Assembly (NCBI GenBank): GCA_015227615.1
Contig: JAALGZ010000004.1
Span: 1,612,001-1,676,000, forward strand
Direction: 5' to 3'
DNA from: Labyrinthula sp. Ha
Lineage: Eukaryota; Sar; Bigyra; Labyrinthulida; Labyrinthulaceae
DNA: 64,000 bases
The notes under the pieces were generated by a model. That model worked only from the letters and a program-made list of their open reading frames with translations. It was not told the DNA's origin and made no database searches. Made by a program: the position numbers and the translations under genes. This document shows positions 16,406 to 34,608 of this stretch, piece by piece. The first letter of the stretch is position 1. The number at the start of each line of letters is the position of its first letter.

Positions 16406-17512
16406 ATGAAAAACGTCAATGAAATAAGTACAAATACTCTGCAAGAACAGAATACAAACTCAAATGTTGAAACAAACCAAGTAGAACAAAGTTATTCTTC
16501 GGTAAAAGTATCACAAAGTGGTTTTGTGAAGGACAGGCAACAAAAGAGTTTTTCTTCAGATTATTTTGAACCTTCTATAGTAGGTATAAATAATCGTAAC
16601 TCAATGTATCAACATAAACACAGAGGAAGTTATACAAATTTCAATATACAAAGTATAAATCAAAGAAATATCCAAAATTCAAATAGCTTACCAACTGCAT
16701 ATTATAATATTCACCAAGTACCTCAAACATATCAAAACTTTTATGATAATAGAAAGATGAGTCATGTGGATAGAATGAATAGTATAAGTAGTATAAGTGC
16801 ATATTCACTTAATACTGCTATGATGCAAATGTCACTTGGACAACCTTCTAACCATATGCACTCTAGTTCACGTTGTTACAACTGTAATCAAATGGGTCAC
16901 TTATCTAGAGATTGTATTTTACCACGTGCTTGTTTCTTATGTGGATTAACAGATCATATTTCTAAAAAGTGTCCTTTTATTGAAGCTGCAAAAGTTGATC
17001 CACTTGTAAAAGAAGCTTTAAAAATAGCAGAACAAAAAGCAGCTACTGAAAGAAGTTTGAAAACAGTAGATGAACAAAACCAATCTCAAGAAGTTTCAGA
17101 TACACAAGGTGATGCAAAACAGTTGATCTGTTTGAATTGTAATCGAGCAGGTCATAGACTTAAAAACTGTCCTTTTCAAAAACAATGTTTTCTTTGTACT
17201 TCTATTGAACACATTGCTCGTGATTGTCCAATTGCTTCAAGTATAAAAAAACATGCTTTTAATTCTCTCTCTGGTATAAATCAAAATTATGCAGCAAATG
17301 TATTGAATTCAGGTCAATATAATTCTATGTCTTATTTAGGTGGTTTAGGAAACGTTCCTCAAATGTCTATGGGAAGAATAAACAGTGTTTTATATCAACC
17401 AACTATTGCAAATCCTCAACTTTCTGGAAACTATTATTCTTTTCCAGAACAAATGTTGAATAATAATAATGTCTTAGATAGACAACAACAATACCAAAAT
17501 AAAGGTGTGTGA
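16406..17512 (+). CDS. Four-knuckle CCHC zinc finger protein (CNBP/Gis2-like)
   Basis: 368 aa, single exon. Four C-x2-C-x4-H-x4-C zinc knuckles come in two pairs: residues 157-170 and 176-189, then about 243-256 and 262-275. The flanks are rich in Asn, Gln, Ser and Tyr and probably disordered. Such knuckles bind single-stranded RNA or DNA; CNBP/Gis2 proteins act in translation and mRNP biology, so an RNA-binding role in the cytoplasm or nucleus is inferred. The paired arrangement with prion-like flanks differs from the compact seven-knuckle CNBP, so the family tie is loose. Gag origin is unlikely because no capsid domain is visible. It converges on DPH6 with 100 bp between. Confidence 0.82.
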   Translation: MKNVNEISTNTLQEQNTNSNVETNQVEQSYSSVKVSQSGFVKDRQQKSFSSDYFEPSIVGINNRNSMYQHKHRGSYTNFNIQSINQRNIQNSNSLPTAYYNIHQVPQTYQNFYDNRKMSHVDRMNSISSISAYSLNTAMMQMSLGQPSNHMHSSSRCYNCNQMGHLSRDCILPRACFLCGLTDHISKKCPFIEAAKVDPLVKEALKIAEQKAATERSLKTVDEQNQSQEVSDTQGDAKQLICLNCNRAGHRLKNCPFQKQCFLCTSIEHIARDCPIASSIKKHAFNSLSGINQNYAANVLNSGQYNSMSYLGGLGNVPQMSMGRINSVLYQPTIANPQLSGNYYSFPEQMLNNNNVLDRQQQYQNKGV

Positions 17513-23899: not shown

Positions 23900-25507
23900 A
23901 TGAGACAAACGAATACAGGCAGGATTCTCTCAAAAAGTCCAACAGGAATAGACATATTCAAAAAATATGTACCATTAGACCCTGTTTCTGTACCCTTTCC
24001 TATTTATAAGTTATAGGGGAGGTCAAATATTTTCTCGAAGGCTTGTTATGAGGAATGGTTAAACACTAGACGGAAAAGACCAAAAGAGCCGCAGCCATCT
24101 TTTCGCAAGGCTATAATAGCTCATTTGAGAGCAAAAGATGGTAGGAGACCATTCTCTGAAATGGAAGAGACTATTGTGCTAGAAGAGCTGCGCAGAAATG
24201 AACCGTGGCCATGCTTCAAGAATAACCAAGGGAGGTGTTTTGAAAATGTAGGAACTCGTACAACAAAACAACCAGGCTTTCACGAATCGAAGCATTTAAA
24301 AAGAAAGAGAAATAATATTGAAAGTAACACGAATAAAGAAGCCATAAAAACCTCTCCAGAAAAGAAAACTGACAAGGTTAAGGCATCTGCAACAGCCAAA
24401 AATTCTGTTGAAGACGTCGTAGTTGATATTGAGTTTAGTGTTCTTCTGGAAGATAAAAAATTTCTCGAGTCTATCGAACTTGGACAAGACCAAACTATCA
24501 GGAATTTTCCCTTTGAAACTGAAAGTATCTTAAATACTTTTTGTGATGTCTCAGAAGATGAAATAAACCTTGTGAAGGTAATAAAACCTACAATAATTAA
24601 GCTATATTCTGAACACTATGATGAATTTGATGTAGATATAAAGTATCCAGATGTTTGTGGAGACCTTAAAATCCTTAGACTATTAAGGAGCTGTTATTAT
24701 GATTTTAATAAAGCTATTACTAGAACTAAAGAAACAATCCATTGGCGGCAAACATATAGTCTTGACAAAATTCGACAAAATCTCTTGAAAACTAATCCTT
24801 GCTTTCATAGTTTGAAAAAAGGATTTATGATTGGAAATAACGGTGGATATTTTGCTTTTTTCTCCCTACTAAGTAATGGAAATATCTTAGATCATATAAC
24901 TTTAAAGAAAAGACATCCTAAAGATTTAGATCAACTTTTAAGTGGATTAACTGAACATTATATTGTAATTGAGTTTCGAAGTATTTTTATTGATCGTCTA
25001 AGTCGCATAAAAAGAAAAGTTGTTTGTGTTGAATGTATAATGGACTTCTCAGAAGTCAATGACAAGAACTCTTGGTCTTCAATTCAAGAGTTTGACTCTG
25101 CAGGTTTTGCTATGAAAGAAGAACCTAGACTTAGTAAAGGTGAGTTCGATGAATTTTTTTCTGAATACAATTGGTTCGAGTTTTGTAGAAAGTGTGCTTG
25201 GTGGCTAAAACGGGTTTTTAACGCAAATACAACTTATAGTCCAAATGTTTTTAATAGTCTTCATGTAGTTGGTTATGGATATATTTATAATGTCTTTATT
25301 ATAAATATAATACAAACAGGACTGGGAAAAAATAGAAAAGAGGAAAAAATATTGCATTTACATAGTTCACATAAAGAACTACAGAAATTTTTTATCAGTA
25401 TTGCAGAAAGAGATGAACTACCTAAATGTTTAGGTGGAAATATAGAAAGTTTTATAGGTACCGATTTATCTTTACTCTGTCTTAATTCTCTCAGAACTGT
25501 TAGTTGA
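23900..25507 (+). CDS. Sec14-like CRAL-TRIO lipid-binding protein with long N-terminal extension
   Basis: Exons 23900-23989 and 24017-25507, joined by a 27-nt intron, give 526 aa. The core is a CRAL-TRIO module. Residues about 245-285 (LKILRLLRSCYYDFNKAI) are the helical N-lobe, and the end carries LPKCLGGN near 500, the LP-x2-LGG signature that closes Sec14 domains. Such proteins transfer or present phosphatidylinositol and other lipids. The first 150 residues are basic and Lys/Glu-rich (KRKRNN, KKTDK), with no domain recognised. The frame is open upstream of the first in-frame ATG of exon 2 (24161), and the intron model extends it in phase, which is why I favour the longer protein. It ends 9 bp before the convergent dehydrogenase gene. 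Confidence 0.7.
23990..24016 (+). other. 27-nt mini-intron of the Sec14-like gene
   Basis: GTACCC at the 5' end, GTTATAG at the 3' end. Phase 0. It joins VPLDPVS to GRSNIFS. Support is size, splice sites and reading frame; no homologous protein backs the junction, so it is weaker than the others. Confidence 0.5.
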
Positions 25508-25516
25508 ATGAATATT

Positions 25517-26660
25517 TTACTTATCTATATTATTTAACCAACTACAAGGTTTCCTACTTTTGTAAATAGAAATAAAGTTTTTAACTATGGTTTTTGATAC
25601 TTGTTCATAAGCACCATCTGCAGATCCACCTAAGTGAGGTGTAAAAAAAGTATTCGGGTGTTTATACAAACCTTCATCTGGAGAAAAAGGTTCAGGTTTA
25701 CCTAGAAGATCATCTGTTAGTTTCCCATCAACTAGTTTTGTCTTGGTACAACCTACATCTGAAGCAAAAAATGAAACTTTATTTCCTTCTAGTGCTCTTA
25801 ACATAGCTGTATTACTAACTATAGGACCTCTTGCTACATTTATAATGAAACATTTTGCTTTGACACTATTCAAGAACTTTTCATTGACTAAAAGTTTTGT
25901 TTCTGGAGTTAATATACACGCAATAAAGATATAATTGGCCTCTTCTAGTGCTTTGAAAGCAGATAATTCTTCTTTTGAATAGTCCTTTTGTTCTTCAAAA
26001 CCATTTCTAAACACTTCTAAATCCATGTTGATACAGCTAAAATCAAAATTAAAAAAATTGGATAAAGAAGAAAAATATTCTAGTTTTTCTTTTGATAGTT
26101 CATTTCGTTTTATTCCAATAATTGAATTTGGTGAAAAAGAGGCAAGTCTTTTTATTATGTTTTCGCCAACAGATCCCATTCCAAGCACTAAAACCTTTTT
26201 CCCATCAATTTGAGTAGAAAGAGGGCTTCCCAGTATTCCTTCTAAAAATGCTTTTTCTGAAGACTTTGGTGGTCGACCAGAAGCAAGAGCAAGATAAACA
26301 GCATGTTCTGCAGTAGCAGAGGCATTTTGGAGAGATGGGGTATTTTGCACGTAAATCCCTTTCTGGGAGGCTGCATCAAAATCAACACCTTCAATACCAA
26401 CCCCAAACTGAATTATACTGTTCAAGCCTAGATATTTAATAGTGATAAAATTATACTTGAATTCAAAATAATATCTTTTGTCAAACGCGACATAGCCGGG
26501 ATTGCAATGTCATATTTAGTAGAAGTAAGTTCCTTGGTTATTCCTTCTTCGGGAACTGCTGATATTACTATTTTATCCAAGTATCCTTCAATTTTCAATT
26601 GCTTTTTTATATAAGTTATGCATGATGGGAATTGGGTTCCACACAATAATACTTTTAATT
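25517..26660 (-). CDS. D-isomer 2-hydroxyacid dehydrogenase, 5' end displaced by a retrotransposon
   Basis: Exon 2 is 25517-26427 and the rest of exon 1 is 26457-26660, with a 29-nt intron between. The first 37 nt of exon 1, including the ATG, now lie at 34604-34640, beyond the LTR element. The NAD-binding fold has VLVLGMGSVGENI (GxGxxG) and FGVGIEGVDFDAA, typical of phosphoglycerate dehydrogenase relatives. FIINVARGPIV (Arg), a later Glu (FSPDEGLY) and PHLGGS (His) give the catalytic residues. Such enzymes reduce 2-keto acids with NAD(P)H; the substrate is unknown. Counting the distal piece, exon 1 has 241 nt, giving phase 1 at the donor, which agrees with the acceptor. This copy is probably inactive or at least unable to use its normal start. 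Confidence 0.85.
26428..26456 (-). other. 29-nt mini-intron of the dehydrogenase gene
   Basis: On the minus strand GTATAATT at the 5' end and ATATCTAG at the 3' end. Phase 1. Removal joins ILNSS to LNSIIQFGVG, restoring the family's conserved block before the NAD-binding fold. Confidence 0.82.
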
Positions 26661-26665
26661 GTTTC
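26661..26665. repeat. Target-site duplication, left copy (GTTTC)
   Basis: GTTTC directly abuts the left LTR and recurs at 34604-34608 directly after the right LTR. Removing the element plus one copy rejoins the host dehydrogenase exon in frame. Confidence 0.88.
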
Positions 26666-27138
26666 TATGGAGTGCTAGTATAGGTTTCTACCTGTTAAAA
26701 TACTTCTCTGATAAGTATTCTTTGATGCTGGTTTTTCTTAAAACTTCTGTTTAAATCTTCTGATTCTTCTCTTCTAAATCGCAAGGAAAAGTCGACACGA
26801 GTTCTTTTCTATATTTTTAACTATTAAGTTAGTGTCTGCTTAATACTCCCTCTAAACTTCCCACTGAACCAAATTCTACAGCTAATTAATACGCTAAAAT
26901 ATTCTAGTCTTTACACTGCAACTTCCTGTATTCTCTTCTCATATCCTTACCGGTATTCTTCCAGTTAGCTATGTTTCAATTTGAAATATATATCACGAGA
27001 TTTCATTCACCATACCACGTCATCACTTTAGTTAAAAGATGTTAAATTTCAAACTTCGTAAATACAATAAATTGCGAAACGATCTTTTACCAGAAATTAC
27101 GAGCGCGGATACATACCAAACTTCCCCATATTTCTACA
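26666..27138 (-). repeat. LTR (3' LTR of the element)
   Basis: 473 bp. In element orientation it begins TGTAGAAATATGG and ends GCACTCCATA. The only difference I noticed from the other LTR is one base near the outer end. Confidence 0.93.
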
Positions 27139-27150
27139 CCGCTCTCTTCT
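27139..27150 (-). other. Polypurine tract
   Basis: On the minus strand AGAAGAGAGCGG directly precedes the 3' LTR, the place where plus-strand DNA synthesis is primed in LTR retroelements. It fixes the LTR boundary and element orientation. Confidence 0.75.
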
Positions 27151-27166
27151 AAGGCGCGAGTTATCC

Positions 27167-28051
27167 CTATTTTACTCCCTTTTCCCAATCAAATGGCGCA
27201 GCAAATGTCCACCAACCTTTTCTACAACCCCAATACCTTCCAAAAATCTCCAACTTCCTAACTCCTGGGTTCAATATTTCTAATACTTTATATGCTTCTC
27301 GAGGCTTTCGACTTTGTTGGAGAACAGTGGAAACGATGACATCTGAACTTCTCTGTTTGGCTAAAACTGGACTTCCTTTAATTCCTACGAGCATAATTTC
27401 TTTAGAATGCCTCAAGTATTGGCCTTGTGATGAGTGTTGATAACCATTCTTGGTTCTTTTGCTCCAGATGACGTATTCTACTAGACGGAAACCTTGGTTG
27501 CTCATCAACTTTCGTCCAACATCTATCTTATTATTGGTCACCCACAAACCTACAATACCATCTTCTACAAGTTCTCCAAATGATATATTAAAGAGCTCCT
27601 TATCTACTAACGTGGGATATTTTATGGTTAGCCCTCTCGTAGGACTGGATGAGGCTTGGTTTTCCCACGGGGGATCAATCATTAAGACCCCAAATCTGCC
27701 AAACGATGTTAGATCCTGACATCTTATATCTCCGATTTTTAACTTGCTTCCGACAGGCTGCCTCCATAATACAAGGTCATTAAACATATCTTCTCTTTTA
27801 TATTTTATTGTAAAGTATGAATCAGCAGGTGAACCAAAGATGGACCATTCAAAACCTTCAGGATCATTTTCTAATAGATTGGACAGTTTGGAACGATATC
27901 TTCTCCTCTCAACTACCTTCGATTTTTCCTTCTCTAAAAACTCCTCCCACTTATCTAGAGCGGTTACAACTTCTACTCTCTTTAATTCTGAAACTATTTC
28001 TAATTTACCTTGAGATCGATTTTTCAGTAATTCCAAAGGGCTGATTTTCAT
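27167..28051 (-). CDS. MT-A70 family adenine-N6 methyltransferase (METTL3 type) encoded by the retrotransposon
   Basis: 294 aa. The catalytic motif DPPW is at residues 126-129, preceded by the typical FGRFGVLMI strand. Further METTL3-like blocks are LWVTNNKIDVGRKL (about 169-182), LRHSKEIMLVGIKGSP (about 213-228) and SRKPREAYKVLEILNPGVRK (about 247-266) followed by LEIFGR. These match METTL3 better than METTL14, which lacks DPPW, or METTL4. The first 100 residues are charged and have no CCCH zinc fingers. It would transfer methyl from S-adenosylmethionine to adenine N6 in RNA or DNA. It lies 9 bp after the pol stop, on the same strand and in the same phase, and inside the LTRs, so it travels with the element. 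The function for the element is unknown. Confidence 0.9.
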   Translation of the reverse strand: MKISPLELLKNRSQGKLEIVSELKRVEVVTALDKWEEFLEKEKSKVVERRRYRSKLSNLLENDPEGFEWSIFGSPADSYFTIKYKREDMFNDLVLWRQPVGSKLKIGDIRCQDLTSFGRFGVLMIDPPWENQASSSPTRGLTIKYPTLVDKELFNISFGELVEDGIVGLWVTNNKIDVGRKLMSNQGFRLVEYVIWSKRTKNGYQHSSQGQYLRHSKEIMLVGIKGSPVLAKQRSSDVIVSTVLQQSRKPREAYKVLEILNPGVRKLEIFGRYWGCRKGWWTFAAPFDWEKGVK

Positions 28052-28060
28052 TTCCTTTAG

Positions 28061-31000
28061 TCAGTTATTTCCTAAAATGAACTTATTTGTACTGCAACTT
28101 AGGACATAGAAATGCGTATCTGGAAGCTCTAGAAATATGCCTTCTCCTTTTAGACAACAATGAATTTTTATGTAGCCGATGATATCAATCTGAACGCCAG
28201 AAACTCCTTTACATCTCGGGGCCTTTTTATGCAGTTCATCATTCTTATATATTGTTAATCCTCCCACTAAATTTTTACCAACGCAACTTTGCCACGCTCC
28301 ACTATCAAGAAGAACATTATATTTATTATTTCCAAAAATTATCTTTAAAACGGATGATCTATTATGATTTGCTTCTACTTCCAAAACATCTATCTCTTTT
28401 CTATCTTGATTTTTAAAAAGTTTGACAATCTTGGAAATATCTTCAATACTTAGCTGGCAGTTTAAAATTTGTTCTGCCGAAAGCAGCGGTATTTCTTCTT
28501 TCTTCTTTCCAAATTTCTGATATTGATGTAGATCTGACCAAGTCTTCTTTCTTATTTTCTTTAGTTCTTCTCTGGTCAATTGGACTCCGTTATTTATTAT
28601 TACACCTTTCCTTCTAAAAACTGATCTTTTCTTATCATTGTAAGCTTTTACAATTCTTAAAGATATCTTGAGTCCGTGGAATTCATAGAGACGCTGGCTT
28701 CCTATTGCAACTTTTACATATTCAACTAATTGGGACCTAGTTTTTCCGGGTAAATAACCTTCTTTCAAAATGGGTTCCCATTTTCCTAAACCGAATACAT
28801 AAATGCAATATTGAAGAGTATCTTTCTCATAACTATTCCAGCCTTTGGACCTACCCAATCCTGGATACACTTGATCATTCAAAAGTTTTAGCTGTGGAGG
28901 ATATTTTATTATTTTCCAAGCTTCACTCAACCAGTCCGAACTTCTTAGCTGCGTTGCTTCTCGGAGTAAGTTTACTTCTGTTTCTTCTACTACTGTTGAT
29001 TTTCTCTTATATATATTGTAAGCTGACGTGAAATCTTCATGATCATTCTGATGTTGATTTAGGTATTTCTGGACTACACGAGGTACATCCTCAAATAGGA
29101 GCTGCAGGTCTTGCCAATTTGCATCTTTTCTGGGGAAACCTTTCCACCAGACAAGTGCTTCAAAACCTTCAACTGATTTCCTAATGTCCAGAAGCTTGTG
29201 CACTTCATATACTCCCTGATTGTAGTAGAAAGCGGCCTTAACTTGATCTGATATTCTGAAATCAGTGGGCTGCGCTTCATAGAGACTGAGTCTCTGAGCA
29301 TGCGCAACATAATTCTTGCCATCTATGCTCTTTACTCTATAGGTAGTCGTACCTAGAACATCTGTTACTATATATGGACCCAGCCATCTTAGATGCAGTT
29401 TACCTTGGGCTCTTTGAGTACCTATATTACTCATAAGTACAAAATCTCCTGGTGCAAATTGCACTTGAGAAGATTTGAACTTTCGATTTATATATTCTCT
29501 TTTTCTCCTTCTATCTTCTACTATGATTGGAAATATTTTTGTTCTCCTATTCTCTATCTCTGATAATAGTTTATGGCATAGATTAATAAAACGAGCTGGA
29601 TCTTTTGGAAAAACAATTTTGTTTGCTGAATTTATTAATGGAAAAGGTTCTAATTCCCTGGCTGGTTCGGCTACCATTTCGTTTTTTCTACCGAAGATGG
29701 AAGTCAGTTCATTAGGTGTGAAGCCTTTTCGAGTTGGTGTGTTATTTATTACATCTGTGACCAGGTCTACGAGCTCATACCATCGGTCTCGATCAAGATT
29801 GTATTCGCTGCAAAGTTGCCTGAGATACCTCAGGATATATCTATTCATCACTTCAATGGAGCCATTGCTCCATGGTGAATACACCACTGAAAAATGGTGT
29901 TGCCCACCATAGATGGAATTAAATTCTGAAACAATCTGGTTGCAGAAATGAGAACCATTGTCAGTGGAAAGTTTGAAACGCGAAGGCATTCCGTGCTCTG
30001 CCCTCCACCTAACTAGCCCCTTTACTACAACGTGAGCACTTGGGCTTGGGTCATATATCATAAGAACTTTCCGAGATATATCCTCGACTAAAACTAACAG
30101 GTATCCCGAATATACTTTCATAAAATCGGAATGCAGTAATAATTCAGAAGAATCAACTGCATGAGGTATTTTTTTATATATTCTTCTCTCCAACTTTAGG
30201 TCTTTATCGCAGTGCAAGCATAACCTCTTTAGTTTGGAGGCTAACATTCTGACATCTGATTTATTCAGACCTTGAAACTTATATTTATTCAAAATACGAA
30301 CCACTTCTTCTACGCTTCCATGTTTACTTATTTGATGAGCTAACACTAAAAATCTCTCTACATGCTGCGGATGAATCAAGATCTCTCCTGCTTTATTTCT
30401 GTATAATCCATCTTCAGATGGATTTACATGCGCAGTCGATTTTACTTTATCTTGTTTTTGGAGGTTCAATAGCTCCTTAACTGAGAGGTCTTTCCATTTT
30501 ATTTTATTTTTAGGAAAGTTTCTACCTACTCTGGCTTCTATGAAGGATACAGATTCTGGATCAAACCTCCATCCTTCCTGCTCATTTTCAATCAATCCTA
30601 CAAATGACTGCCCTTTCTCTTTACGAATATTCACGATTTTCTTCTTCTCCAACTCAATGTCCTTCTCCCTGACCAAAAAAGTTATTCCTTTCCAGGTGAG
30701 GGTCCAGTTGTAATCATCCGTTGTTGGCATGATCTCAGTCTCAGTACCCGCTGTTGATCCTAGATATCCCCAGCGCGTAAGTAAATCTGCAAGTACATTA
30801 TGTTGTCCACCTATATGGTAGACTTCAACGTCGAATTCTTGCACTGTCAAAATCCACCTCTGGATTCTGCCAAAGGAAGATTGTTTCAAGTCTCTCGGGC
30901 TGCTCATGAGGTGCTTCACATTCATGTGATCAGTAAATATCTTTATTTTTCTAGTGACATTTATTAGTAAGAAACGATATCTTCGAAGGGTGCGGATGAT

Positions 31001-32536
31001 GGGGTATATTTCCTTATCTGTTATTGACCAGAATCTTGACGACTGAGTAAATTCTCCGCTGACGAAGAATATTGGCTCCCACCCATCTCCCGAAAAGCTA
31101 GCTAGAACGCTGGACCAATATTTATCGCTGGCATCAGTAAAGATGCCCATCTGGCCGTCAGCTTCAAAAATCTTCAACTTTTTCTCTTGGCATCCCTCGA
31201 TTATCTGCAGAAACTTCTGGAACTCTACTTGATCTTCTTCTCTCCACAACTTCTCTATGTCAACTTTCTTTCTGGCATCCTTCCTCATCTTTTCCCCTTT
31301 TTCCAATTTGATGTTCTCTTCAATTTCCCTCATTCTTGTATTTAAATGTCCTTTATTTTTACTTAGGTTGGGCAAAGAATCTGATAACCAAGTTGATACA
31401 TACACTACGTCTTGAAGTTGGCCAAGGGTTTGTGGACGCGGCAACTTTATAATTTTAGCGAAATAACTTGAGTCATATTTCCAATGACCTTTTTCCAGGA
31501 TCCTGCCACACCATTTGGTTTTCGATTGGACTAGATCGCACTTGTCCAAGTTGAGCTTGGACTTCTTTTGGATGCAATTTTTTAGGAACGTTCCAAGTAG
31601 TTGAAGATAACCTGCAAACGAGTTATGGTATAATAGAGTATCATCTAACCATTGCAGGGCACCTGCTCCGAATATCGAATCTCCCTCACTATTTGTCAAT
31701 ACTTCGTTTACCAGCCGTTCTTGATACACCTGTGGTGTATTTCGGAACCCTTGTGGTGCCATGCGCATACAATACGTACCAAGAGGTGTCACCATTCCGA
31801 AGTATTTATATGAAGTTTCCTCCATCTTCAAATAGTCAAATCCCGAAAGGCCGTCGAAAGAACCGAAACAACATTCATTCCCCTTTAGCCATCCAAGTTG
31901 CGCCTCAAGGTCGGGCAAGCCAAGCCCTGCTGGCAAACAGTTTTTGTTCACCTTCCTCAAATCTACAACCATCCTGTATTCCGTTGGCTTCCTTGGCTTG
32001 GGCAACATCATCACTGGACTAGAGAAAAATGGGTTGGGTTCCCGGTAGATCATGCCCATGTCAGTGAGCTCTTGTATGTTTTTCTTTAATTCTTCTAGGA
32101 TAAGTCTCTTCACTGGATATGGTTTGGATACAAAAGTGCTGCTTGATGGATTTATTTCAACCCTCATTGGAGTGAGGTTGTTGAATTCACATTTGGCTTC
32201 TTTAAAAGCAAAGGCTGCTTTGAACTCCTTCAAAACTTTTTCTAACTCTGTTGCTTGTTCTAAATTCAAAGCTTGAGTCTTCACTAGGTCTTCAACTTTC
32301 TTTTCTATTTTATTATTTAGGAGCTGCTGCATTTTTGGGGTGTCGATGTGAGGTTTGCCGGATGACGCTCCCACCTCATATTCCTTTCTCAGAATTTCAT
32401 CCGACAGCTCATCCCGATAATATGCATGCTCGGCGTAGTCCGGTACTTCTCCCTCCTCTGCTGGTCTTACTTCCTCATCACTACTATTCGAACTCACCTC
32501 CGCAACTTTCCAGTCTCCCATTTCAACCATGTACAT
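28061..32536 (-). CDS. pol: Retrotransposon pol polyprotein (RT, RNase H, integrase, chromodomain, SANT-like, protease)
   Basis: 1491 aa from the first ATG; the frame is open further upstream to the gag stop. The RT domain spans about 130-345, with an LDD-type active box at 297-299 and a KWCGR block at 341-345. RNase H is at about 463-590. Integrase has an HHCC zinc site (about 725-777) and a DDE core (Asp804, Asp859, Glu895). A chromodomain (about 1108-1160, with VWWKGFP) may target integration to marked chromatin. A SANT/Myb-like segment (about 1230-1295) follows. A retropepsin-like domain (about 1395-1491) has LLDSGA and ends in FILGN. Protease at the C-terminus is not the usual gypsy order. 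No break recognised. Confidence 0.92.
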   Translation of the reverse strand: MYMVEMGDWKVAEVSSNSSDEEVRPAEEGEVPDYAEHAYYRDELSDEILRKEYEVGASSGKPHIDTPKMQQLLNNKIEKKVEDLVKTQALNLEQATELEKVLKEFKAAFAFKEAKCEFNNLTPMRVEINPSSSTFVSKPYPVKRLILEELKKNIQELTDMGMIYREPNPFFSSPVMMLPKPRKPTEYRMVVDLRKVNKNCLPAGLGLPDLEAQLGWLKGNECCFGSFDGLSGFDYLKMEETSYKYFGMVTPLGTYCMRMAPQGFRNTPQVYQERLVNEVLTNSEGDSIFGAGALQWLDDTLLYHNSFAGYLQLLGTFLKNCIQKKSKLNLDKCDLVQSKTKWCGRILEKGHWKYDSSYFAKIIKLPRPQTLGQLQDVVYVSTWLSDSLPNLSKNKGHLNTRMREIEENIKLEKGEKMRKDARKKVDIEKLWREEDQVEFQKFLQIIEGCQEKKLKIFEADGQMGIFTDASDKYWSSVLASFSGDGWEPIFFVSGEFTQSSRFWSITDKEIYPIIRTLRRYRFLLINVTRKIKIFTDHMNVKHLMSSPRDLKQSSFGRIQRWILTVQEFDVEVYHIGGQHNVLADLLTRWGYLGSTAGTETEIMPTTDDYNWTLTWKGITFLVREKDIELEKKKIVNIRKEKGQSFVGLIENEQEGWRFDPESVSFIEARVGRNFPKNKIKWKDLSVKELLNLQKQDKVKSTAHVNPSEDGLYRNKAGEILIHPQHVERFLVLAHQISKHGSVEEVVRILNKYKFQGLNKSDVRMLASKLKRLCLHCDKDLKLERRIYKKIPHAVDSSELLLHSDFMKVYSGYLLVLVEDISRKVLMIYDPSPSAHVVVKGLVRWRAEHGMPSRFKLSTDNGSHFCNQIVSEFNSIYGGQHHFSVVYSPWSNGSIEVMNRYILRYLRQLCSEYNLDRDRWYELVDLVTDVINNTPTRKGFTPNELTSIFGRKNEMVAEPARELEPFPLINSANKIVFPKDPARFINLCHKLLSEIENRRTKIFPIIVEDRRRKREYINRKFKSSQVQFAPGDFVLMSNIGTQRAQGKLHLRWLGPYIVTDVLGTTTYRVKSIDGKNYVAHAQRLSLYEAQPTDFRISDQVKAAFYYNQGVYEVHKLLDIRKSVEGFEALVWWKGFPRKDANWQDLQLLFEDVPRVVQKYLNQHQNDHEDFTSAYNIYKRKSTVVEETEVNLLREATQLRSSDWLSEAWKIIKYPPQLKLLNDQVYPGLGRSKGWNSYEKDTLQYCIYVFGLGKWEPILKEGYLPGKTRSQLVEYVKVAIGSQRLYEFHGLKISLRIVKAYNDKKRSVFRRKGVIINNGVQLTREELKKIRKKTWSDLHQYQKFGKKKEEIPLLSAEQILNCQLSIEDISKIVKLFKNQDRKEIDVLEVEANHNRSSVLKIIFGNNKYNVLLDSGAWQSCVGKNLVGGLTIYKNDELHKKAPRCKGVSGVQIDIIGYIKIHCCLKGEGIFLELPDTHFYVLSCSTNKFILGNN

Positions 32537-32719
32537 TTCTGGAATATCGACGGGATCTACACTTTCTACTGTGGGAACTACGCTGTCACCGGTTACCCCC
32601 GATACTCCCCCGAGGTTCCCGACCTCAGATGAGTCCTTCTGGTTGTCCCTTGATACTTCATTTACCTGGTGTTTCTCCGAGGTTCGGTGTTGGTACGTAT
32701 TTTGCTGATGGTTTTGTTG

Positions 32720-34081
32720 TTAGAAATTTGAACCCCTACCATATCCTCCTCCGGTTTCTCGCTCTTTTTCTCGTTTCTTTAGTAAAGGGCAACTTTGTGC
32801 ATAGTGGCCAGTAGAAAAGCAATATCCGCAAAGATTATTTTCTCTGGAATATGCCCTTCTTTTCTCCAATGGCCATCCTCTGGGTACAATATGTTTCTGA
32901 TATCCATTAGCTAAGGTAATTATTTTTAATTCACTATTTTTAGGATAAAAGACTGAAGAAGCTGATTTCTTTACTGCACTCTGCTGTGTGTGATCTGGTG
33001 AACTTCTTTTTGTCTTGGAAATCTTCTGATGTTGAAGGGCAGCGCTTTGAATGTCCCACGTTGAAATTGATATCGCCGCTCTTCGCAACCCTCTCTTCAA
33101 CTGCTTGTACGTCCTCCAACCTTCTTCCGTCTGTCTCTCTTTTGCTCTACTGCTACCAAATTCGGTTGGGAGTCTCTTGATTATTTTTAGGCACACTTCT
33201 TTTTCTATGCTCTTATTGTCGAAATGAATTCCGCGAAGTATTTTATCTGCTGCCTTCAAGAATGCTCCCATAGAAGCTGAAGGACTTCCCAAGTTCTTCC
33301 ACTGGATACCTTCTACCTCCCTTATTACGATTTTGGACCTACTACGATCCTCATTCTTTTTTATTTTTCTTAAATACTTTAGGATCTTGGCCTGGACTGT
33401 CATATCAAAGCCTTCCTCAACTAAATCAACTTTCACTTCATTGGTCAAACATAAAGACAGATCTGCTACCGAAAGACCAAAGCGGCGTCGCACTACCATG
33501 GCCTCGTAAATATCGTATTCTGCGATGAATTTTGAAACCACTGGGGGGTCAAGATTAGGCAAGATTGGCTTGTCCTTGTATCTTTCCTCCCTTGCTCTGC
33601 CTTTAACTTCGTTCCTAATTAAAGTGGGTACAGGTTGGAGTTCCGTTTCTTCTTCTTCACTACTGGAGCTATCGCTTGGTGAACTTTCTTCTAGATCTGC
33701 CTGCTCATGATGTATTCTAAATGGGGTATGAATGTTTGAAGGAGTGGTATAACCAGTTGGACTATTTGACAAAGGTGGGCTCACACCGCGTTTTAGGAGG
33801 TCCAAGCTTCGTCTTATCTCCTCCCATTCCTGCCTTGACAAAGTGACTGTATCACTCTGTACCCCCTTTTCGGGAGTAGGATTTACTGCTGCTGGACCAG
33901 TTGATATTTCACCCTCAAATGACGGGGTTTCTTCTATTGGTTGTACGTTGACTGTTACTGAAGTATTATGGGTTTCTTCTATTTTTTCTTCTGTATTTGT
34001 GGAAGCGGTTTCACCAGTTCTTGGTTCACTGGCACGGGTTCCCAATCTGCTGGATCTTCTTAAGGTTCTTCTTTCGCTCAT
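32720..34081 (-). CDS. gag: Retrotransposon Gag protein with CCHC zinc knuckle
   Basis: 453 aa. The N-terminal third is acidic and Ser/Thr-rich. The middle part (about 155-340) is helical and charged and presumably contains the capsid fold. One zinc knuckle (CGYCFSTGHYAQSC) lies near the C-terminus, followed by a Gly/Arg tail. Gag packages the RNA and forms the particle. It starts 49 nt inside the 5' LTR. It shares its reading phase with pol, with the gag stop between them; read-through of such a stop is a known way for some LTR elements to make Gag-Pol. Confidence 0.88.
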   Translation of the reverse strand: MSERRTLRRSSRLGTRASEPRTGETASTNTEEKIEETHNTSVTVNVQPIEETPSFEGEISTGPAAVNPTPEKGVQSDTVTLSRQEWEEIRRSLDLLKRGVSPPLSNSPTGYTTPSNIHTPFRIHHEQADLEESSPSDSSSSEEEETELQPVPTLIRNEVKGRAREERYKDKPILPNLDPPVVSKFIAEYDIYEAMVVRRRFGLSVADLSLCLTNEVKVDLVEEGFDMTVQAKILKYLRKIKKNEDRSRSKIVIREVEGIQWKNLGSPSASMGAFLKAADKILRGIHFDNKSIEKEVCLKIIKRLPTEFGSSRAKERQTEEGWRTYKQLKRGLRRAAISISTWDIQSAALQHQKISKTKRSSPDHTQQSAVKKSASSVFYPKNSELKIITLANGYQKHIVPRGWPLEKRRAYSRENNLCGYCFSTGHYAQSCPLLKKREKERETGGGYGRGSNF

Positions 34082-34130
34082 GATTTACTACTTTTATTAT
34101 TTTTGGCACTTCTGATCTTATTGAATTCAA

Positions 34131-34603
34131 TATGGAGTGCTACTATAGGTTTCTACCTGTTAAAATACTTCTCTGATAAGTATTCTTTGATGCTGGTTTT
34201 TCTTAAAACTTCTGTTTAAATCTTCTGATTCTTCTCTTCTAAATCGCAAGGAAAAGTCGACACGAGTTCTTTTCTATATTTTTAACTATTAAGTTAGTGT
34301 CTGCTTAATACTCCCTCTAAACTTCCCACTGAACCAAATTCTACAGCTAATTAATACGCTAAAATATTCTAGTCTTTACACTGCAACTTCCTGTATTCTC
34401 TTCTCATATCCTTACCGGTATTCTTCCAGTTAGCTATGTTTCAATTTGAAATATATATCACGAGATTTCATTCACCATACCACGTCATCACTTTAGTTAA
34501 AAGATGTTAAATTTCAAACTTCGTAAATACAATAAATTGCGAAACGATCTTTTACCAGAAATTACGAGCGCGGATACATACCAAACTTCCCCATATTTCT
34601 ACA
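34131..34603 (-). repeat. LTR (5' LTR of the element)
   Basis: 473 bp, the partner of 26666-27138. It presumably carries the element promoter. Just inside it the minus strand reads TTGAATTCAATAAG, where a primer-binding site is expected; I do not recognise a matching tRNA. Confidence 0.93.
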
Positions 34604-34608
34604 GTTTC
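34604..34608. repeat. Target-site duplication, right copy (GTTTC)
   Basis: Pairs with 26661-26665 and is part of the host dehydrogenase coding exon. Confidence 0.88.

Follow-up and report, generated by a model that had tools for sequence, protein, structure and literature searches.

What is an MT-A70 adenine methyltransferase doing at the end of a retrotransposon in Labyrinthula sp. Ha? The first-pass annotation of a 64-kb window (the whole stretch of DNA analyzed here, part of contig C88 in a genome that we searched over 50.8 Mb and 153 contigs) had proposed an LTR retrotransposon with its own METTL3-type enzyme, encoded by a full-length and separate ORF, which might mark either the RNA of the element or its DNA. 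Element and enzyme are both present. The window (G+C content, 34%) contains a young LTR retrotransposon of 7.94 kb on the minus strand, at positions 26666 to 34603 (Table 1), whose LTRs differ by 1 mismatch in 473 bp in an ungapped comparison and which is bordered at both ends by GTTTC, a 5-bp target duplication. Based on its domain order and Pfam matches, we file it as a Ty3/gypsy-type element with a chromodomain. The 294-aa ORF lies where it had been placed, on the minus strand 9 bp past pol, with an intact DPPW motif and the blocks LWVTNNK, KEIMLVGIKG, and LEIFGR, and the Pfam model agrees with the family assignment to MT-A70 (E value of 7e-32; 111 bits, with the cut-off at 23.9). The gag-like ORF contains a C-x2-C-x4-H-x4-C knuckle close to its end, as read from the sequence; it matched no Pfam family at an E value of 0.001, and zf-CCHC_2 reached just 0.062.

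Table 1. Parts of the window element and the host gene at its insertion site
Feature	Position in window	Strand	Basis or remark
Host 2-hydroxyacid dehydrogenase gene, two reading blocks	25517..26660	-	PF02826, E 5.5e-28
Target-site duplication, copy 1	26661..26665	.	GTTTC on + strand
3' LTR, 473 bp, TG start on minus strand	26666..27138	-	Ungapped comparison
MTA1-like methyltransferase stretch, 294 aa	27167..28051	-	Pfam MT-A70, motifs, scores, trees
MT-A70 domain inside methyltransferase stretch	about 27203-27694	-	
pol frame, 1491 aa	28061..32536	-	Sequence and Pfam
Aspartic protease-like domain (LLDSGA), after integrase	28064..28459	-	Alignment and profile match
p1-like Myb domain (p1, DNA-binding subunit of MTA1c)	28547..28894	-	Profile search
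Chromodomain	29057..29209	-	PF00385, E 1.6e-6, 28.4 bits, above cut-off of 25.1
Integrase core	29873..30130	-	PF00665, E 4.7e-6, 27.2 bits, under curated cut-off of 32.6
RNase H	30833..31153	-	PF17917, E 2e-19
Reverse transcriptase	31505..32002	-	PF00078, E 7.2e-12
gag-like ORF, 453 aa	32720..34081	-	Sequence; knuckle near end
5' LTR	34131..34603	-	Paired with 3' LTR
Target-site duplication, copy 2	34604..34608	.	GTTTC

The enzyme does not appear to have a gene of its own. Its ORF is in the same frame as pol, with one in-frame stop between them, located where the protease-like domain ends, and gag and pol likewise share one frame with a single stop separating them; two in-frame stops (gag/pol and pol/methyltransferase) thus split the polyprotein of this copy. 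In the relative L014, whose identity to the window element is 96 to 100% across nine compared pieces, a single open frame of 2305 aa spans the whole coding region; for this reason, the ATG at the head of the 294-aa ORF is probably not a natural start. The ORF is real, as annotated; that it is a piece of a polyprotein frame qualifies its description as full length. We fetched 20 full-size relatives, picked from the MT-A70 matches and mostly with long open frames. Similarity to the window pieces gave the order RT-RNaseH-INT-chromodomain-Myb-MTase in all 20, and a single open frame ran from before RT through the methyltransferase in 14 of them, exceeding 2100 aa in 11 of these. An LTR pair was found in 19 relatives (truncated in three cases where the fetched stretch ended), and because the identity between LTRs, 93% at the lowest, reaches 100%, some of the insertions are recent. 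Judged from these frames, the methyltransferase forms the C-terminal part of a polyprotein in the relatives, and in the window an in-frame stop separates it from the rest. A separate accessory ORF is ruled out, as the relatives encode the enzyme within one polyprotein and the window keeps the same frame. Several elements have a single in-frame stop between gag and RT (L026, position 2326, and L027, position 550, both counted along the oriented stretch; L015, position 2610; window, position 32720). The stop is TAG in L026 and L027, and it may serve for readthrough instead of being a sign of decay.

The window element is one of many. The genome contains at least 157 MT-A70 places besides one host-type AMT1 (L008); the best 150 of 354 candidates were scored, and a search with a METTL3 query added 8 places, two of which are possibly pieces of one domain. 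A good part of these places sit in open frames of more than 1000 aa and up to 2660 aa, and the 45 domains that we compared fall into 15 to 25 groups at thresholds of 50 to 80% methyltransferase identity. For comparison, the cytosine methyltransferase family has two places in the genome (G000:C77:362853-363845 and C121:1129060-1130208), against at least 158 for MT-A70. Looking from the retroelement side, we scored the best 150 of 379 RNase H candidates: 72 have a listed MT-A70 place downstream, and the number rises to 81 when listed p1-like places are counted as well. Two of the 78 without a listed MT-A70 place were fetched and both carry the domain (170 and 44 bits, the second being weak), and gypsy elements without the methyltransferase are therefore not established here. 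The eight top RNase H matches (L049 to L056) look like a second, different retroelement type, with no methyltransferase domain in the part examined, outside which their far ends lie. Beyond this genome, a search of 5.8 billion proteins, which sees just relatives with exact shared words and 604 to 1921 aa long, yielded one pol-fused MT-A70 protein among 503 candidates, and this protein shares its methyltransferase domain with locus L016 of the genome searched here.

Which MT-A70 enzyme did the elements acquire? By score, the window methyltransferase is nearly tied between MTA1 (112 bits) and METTL3 (107 bits), which made the METTL3 call a reasonable one on the sequence alone. Its identity is 40% to a METTL3 and 34% to the host AMT1, and a genome search with a METTL3 query ranked the window element itself first (44% identity, 133 bits). 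These similarities favor an enzyme that writes m6A on the transcript of its own element. However, the residues argue against it. The motif P[TVSIL]RG is found in 44 of 45 non-host-type MT-A70 domains and in all 25 AMT1 rows (24 of them distinct) but in none of the 6 METTL3 rows, in a comparison that took in AMT1 and METTL3 out of the eukaryotic MT-A70 families; an acidic residue replaces Q550 of METTL3 in 36 of the 45 domains, the window having a proline. P0008 was left out of these residue counts, and L001 to L004, which are the same places as refetched loci, were left out of the trees. Among the tree topologies, computed for AMT1, METTL3, and phage MT-A70 sequences and so for part of the six eukaryotic MT-A70 families, the best constrained one joined the elements to AMT1 (AU, 0.536), a grouping with METTL3 was marginally rejected (AU P value of 0.047), and the other groupings, including the one with phages (P value of 0.376), were not rejected. 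The first 119 residues of the window methyltransferase contain one cysteine and hence no CCCH fingers. A structure model predicts the first ~100 aa to be mostly helical, with low confidence (helices at residues 16 to 41 and 46 to 61, low pLDDT); alignments to MTA1 chains extend to model residue 14, and METTL3 and MTA1 could not be told apart by comparing structures. By its residues, the element methyltransferase appears to be of the AMT1 type and not of the METTL3 type, with trees that are not decisive.

Two other sources of the enzyme were considered. Capture of a host METTL3 finds no candidate, as no match to the METTL3 query exceeded 44% identity (111 scored of 355 candidates), in a search that could miss an ortholog broken by introns. 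For a phage origin, identity to the window protein was at most 35% in the best 10 of 72 phage records, and in the tree the seven fetched phage sequences cluster with one another, but the topology that joins the elements to the phages was, as stated above, not rejected. The host AMT1 scores 250 bits to MTA1 and 127 bits to METTL3; its closest named relatives are from thraustochytrids (Mucochytrium and Hondaea), and the trees place it weakly with stramenopiles.

Most of the element domains have kept their catalytic residues. The tetrad is DPPW in 26 domains, the window included, DPAW in 10, DPPY in 4, and another in five, so that 40 of 45 retain one of the three main forms, and the equivalents of K513, E532, and R536 are kept in 43, 41, and 42 of the 45, respectively. 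DPAW need not mean loss of activity because it occurs also in two METTL3-like proteins (P0006 and P0007). The window and L014 copies have a glycine at the N539 equivalent and A/P at N549/Q550 in the SAM pocket, and these two copies may bind SAM poorly.

The polyprotein contains a second domain that bears on the identity of the enzyme. When the Myb-domain alignment of 11 elements was compared with PDB sequences, Tetrahymena p1 was matched with an E value of 9.4e-27 (96 bits), and other Myb proteins scored far lower, the best being SNAPC4 (9.4e-14), with c-Myb at 1.1e-7. The match covers ~100 residues (profile positions 15 to 113 against p1 residues 21 to 120) and extends beyond the ~50-residue Myb core; the block after the Myb is shorter in 5 of the 11 sequences, and p1 residues beyond 120 have no match in the profile. 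When the profile was built from five divergent elements alone, p1 again ranked first (E value of 2.1e-13), and the window domain alone reached 65.8 bits and 40% identity to the Tetrahymena p1 fragment. The generic Pfam Myb model matched 6 of the 11 members at an E value of 0.1 (6.2e-7 at best) and did not match the window member at that threshold. Two matches to the p1 fragment (45 to 47% identity, 96 to 97 bits) outrank the element copies in the genome. They are p1-like genes outside the elements, L072 (G000:C1:1284467) and L073 (C100:136015), mutually 55% identical over the stretch compared, and we take them as host genes because no listed MT-A70 or RNase H place is close by. The p1 domains of the elements form one group (support of 97), apart from the two host sequences and the one from Tetrahymena. 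A listed MT-A70 place follows 0.65 to 1.5 kb downstream on the same strand in 106 of the best 150 p1-like places; counted the other way, and again among listed matches, a p1-like place lies upstream in 106 of at least 158 MT-A70 places.

A p1-like partner argues against an RNA methyltransferase. As described in PMC9174199, a helical arm of MTA1 holds p1 and p2, which contribute to DNA binding by MTA1c, and the complex prefers dsDNA, its activity on RNA and ssDNA being weak or absent; the account in PMC12695648 has p1 and p2 exclusively alongside AMT1. METTL3, whose partner is METTL14, is without PxRG in the rows compared, unlike the element enzyme. Its CCCH fingers and RNA substrate are described in PMC9174199. 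We consider it quite unlikely that the enzyme methylates the element transcript. Given the AMT1-type residues, the marginal rejection of the METTL3 grouping, and the p1-like domain, a writer on DNA is likelier than an RNA m6A writer, which leaves the DNA half of the first proposal standing; the label METTL3-type does not fit PxRG in nearly all domains, the AU result, and the p1-like domain in the same polyprotein.

Have these domains traveled with the element? We built domain trees for 18 of 21 elements, using unjoined open stretches only (L019, L024, and L025 were left out). The RT, INT, p1, and methyltransferase trees share 10 to 13 of 15 splits, with the methyltransferase tree sharing 11 with RT, 13 with INT, and 12 with p1, while label-shuffled trees share ~0.3 splits on average and 4 at most. 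This agreement suggests that the 18 elements most likely inherited the p1-methyltransferase module from their common ancestor. The methyltransferase dN/dS lies between 0.04 and 0.23 in nine usable families, with 0.089 in family B (10 pairs), 0.155 in family A (28 pairs), and 0.04 to 0.23 in seven further single pairs, ranges that are given without the methyltransferase pairs of C and J (saturated) and K (wrong neighboring match). The corresponding values for RT are 0.048 in family B and 0.273 in family A, the latter inflated by frame-broken copies, and those for p1 are 0.069 to 0.151 in three families, p1 of C being saturated. By this measure, the methyltransferase is under purifying selection in most of the families tested. 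The first-pass annotation had named a lack of other copies, or neutral decay among them, as the sign of a one-off capture, and such a capture is ruled out by the many copies, the 20 full-size relatives included, the low dN/dS, and the shared tree splits. It also seems extremely unlikely that the enzyme is a passenger without function. The window copy is split by its two stops, several other copies are broken, and the methyltransferase dN/dS between the window and L014 is 0.63, a value that rests on 10 changes (the p1 domains of this pair have zero amino acid changes); against this, the domain was inherited together with RT, INT, and p1 across 18 elements, and its dN/dS is far below 1 in nine families.

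The position of the protease offers a hint about how the enzyme could act. In Ty3/gypsy-type elements the protease is usually encoded upstream of RT, an arrangement that the window element does not share. Here, a DSGA protease is located between p1 and the methyltransferase, as it is in 5 of 10 relatives (L009, L013, L015, L021, and L022); it precedes RT in three others (L020, L023, and L028) and was not found in the frame examined in L026 and L027. The protease profile matches retroviral-like aspartic protease 1 with an E value of 2.7e-4. That the protease is found past the integrase in one set of elements and ahead of RT in another amounts to a relocation within one group. Its place next to the methyltransferase suggests that the enzyme is released by cleavage, a retroviral-type protease cutting it free.

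The architecture, the homologies, the co-inheritance with RT and integrase, and the purifying selection are all documented at the level of sequence. Beside them we set an explanation that we regard as probable, although far from certain: an old and diverse Ty3/gypsy-type group captured p1 and MTA1 as a cis-fused writer of DNA 6mA, whose activity and target we infer. In the clade of the window element, the protease between the p1-like domain and the methyltransferase would free the enzyme, which the p1-like domain and the chromodomain would direct to DNA. There it would methylate adenines, probably in ApT, the main site of AMT1 (PMC12695648), and the target would be the cDNA of the element or its fresh insertion. 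MTA1c is described as requiring the holoenzyme, with SAM binding enabled by p2 (PMC9174199), and Mucor as having mta1, mta9, and p1 while p2 is absent (PMC11258239); on these grounds we place p1 and MTA1 in one chain and suppose that MTA9 (AMT6/7) and p2, neither of which was recognized in the element, are possibly borrowed from the host. The likeliest benefit would be a self-written permissive mark with which new copies are transcribed, because 6mA in the species of PMC12695648 is found on expressed genes that bear H3K4me3 and shows no enrichment on transposons.

The same domains could instead serve targeting, with the p1-like domain, the chromodomain, and the methyltransferase acting as readers that steer integration to promoter chromatin carrying 6mA and H3K4me3, and with catalysis being secondary or lost in some families. 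The chromodomain and the p1-like domain come directly after the integrase, several methyltransferase domains have substitutions in the SAM pocket or in DPPW, and the window element interrupts the dehydrogenase gene near its 5' coding end. Joining the flanks into an empty site gives one open frame continuing from the far flank, and, provided that translation begins at the first ATG in this joined frame, the insertion lies ~12 codons into the gene. This insertion fits promoter-proximal targeting, without showing it; however, it is a single site and yields no statistic, and the retention of the catalytic residues and the purifying selection on the methyltransferase speak for an enzyme. We hence regard targeting as unlikely to be the main role of the module. 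At the insertion site, a 29-nt GT...AG stretch at about 26428 to 26456 on the minus strand, where the reading blocks of the dehydrogenase change frame, may be a very short intron. Elsewhere in the window, a 368-aa ORF (16406 to 17512, plus strand) has a strong zinc knuckle (PF00098; E value of 4.8e-17) and could represent either a relic of gag or an RNA-binding protein of the host, and a 460-aa ORF (24125 to 25507, plus strand) has no Pfam match at an E value of 0.001.

Adenine methylation might also shield the cDNA of the element against a nuclease or sensor of the host. A like hypothesis has been proposed for DNMT-bearing elements (PMC5890265). That the methyltransferase shares its polyprotein with RT and integrase would suit such a role. 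No 6mA-sensitive defense is known in this setting, and we rate protection of the cDNA as very unlikely.

How does a cis-fused 6mA writer, our preferred explanation, compare with known systems? KnitGypsy-Dnmt3 of Klebsormidium nitens is likewise a Gypsy element with LTRs whose Pol frame includes a DNA methyltransferase and whose distinct copies are under purifying selection (Ka/Ks < 0.2), but its enzyme is a cytosine-5 methyltransferase that makes 5mC and not 6mA, and the description in PMC5890265 mentions no DNA-binding partner. DIRS elements also encode an N6-adenine methyltransferase; theirs is a bacterial-like enzyme of the Dam type and not a eukaryotic MT-A70/AMT1 protein, and the accounts of it in PMC5890265 and PMC6338049 name no MT-A70 enzyme and mention no p1-like domain. 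MTA1c of ciliates and early fungi (MTA1-MTA9-p1-p2) has the same combination of an MTA1-type MT-A70 enzyme and a p1-type Myb protein, as separate host proteins (PMC9174199, PMC11258239, and PMC13297926), whereas the elements fuse the p1-like and MTA1-like parts to RT, integrase, and chromodomain and have no recognizable MTA9 or p2 part. Among the best matches in the open-access literature, judged by titles and abstract openings and with bioRxiv and most subscription papers outside, we found no earlier report of an MT-A70 enzyme in a retrotransposon. Compared with the known methyltransferase retroelements, the enzyme family, the carried partner subunit, and the likely sign of the mark are new.

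In summary, the retroelement DNA methyltransferases known so far are cytosine or Dam-type enzymes, and the parts captured here resemble two subunits of a eukaryotic 6mA complex. 6mA is tied to active chromatin, and its origin and use are debated. We tentatively propose, as a possibility a little short of even, that this lineage writes the activating 6mA of its host on its own copies by means of a single-chain p1-MTA1 protein and so licenses itself for transcription. With its many families, the lineage would have become the largest source of AMT1-type domains in the genome and may shape the 6mA landscape of the host. The proposal predicts 6mA on transposons in this genome, as opposed to the species of PMC12695648, in which they are reported not to be enriched. 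The eleven sampled lineages of natural p1-MTA1 fusions also provide material for finding the smallest active 6mA writer. If the enzyme is active, it becomes directly testable whether a transposon can write an activating DNA mark on itself, and such self-licensing, if true, would be opposite in sign to the cytosine mark that commonly silences transposons.
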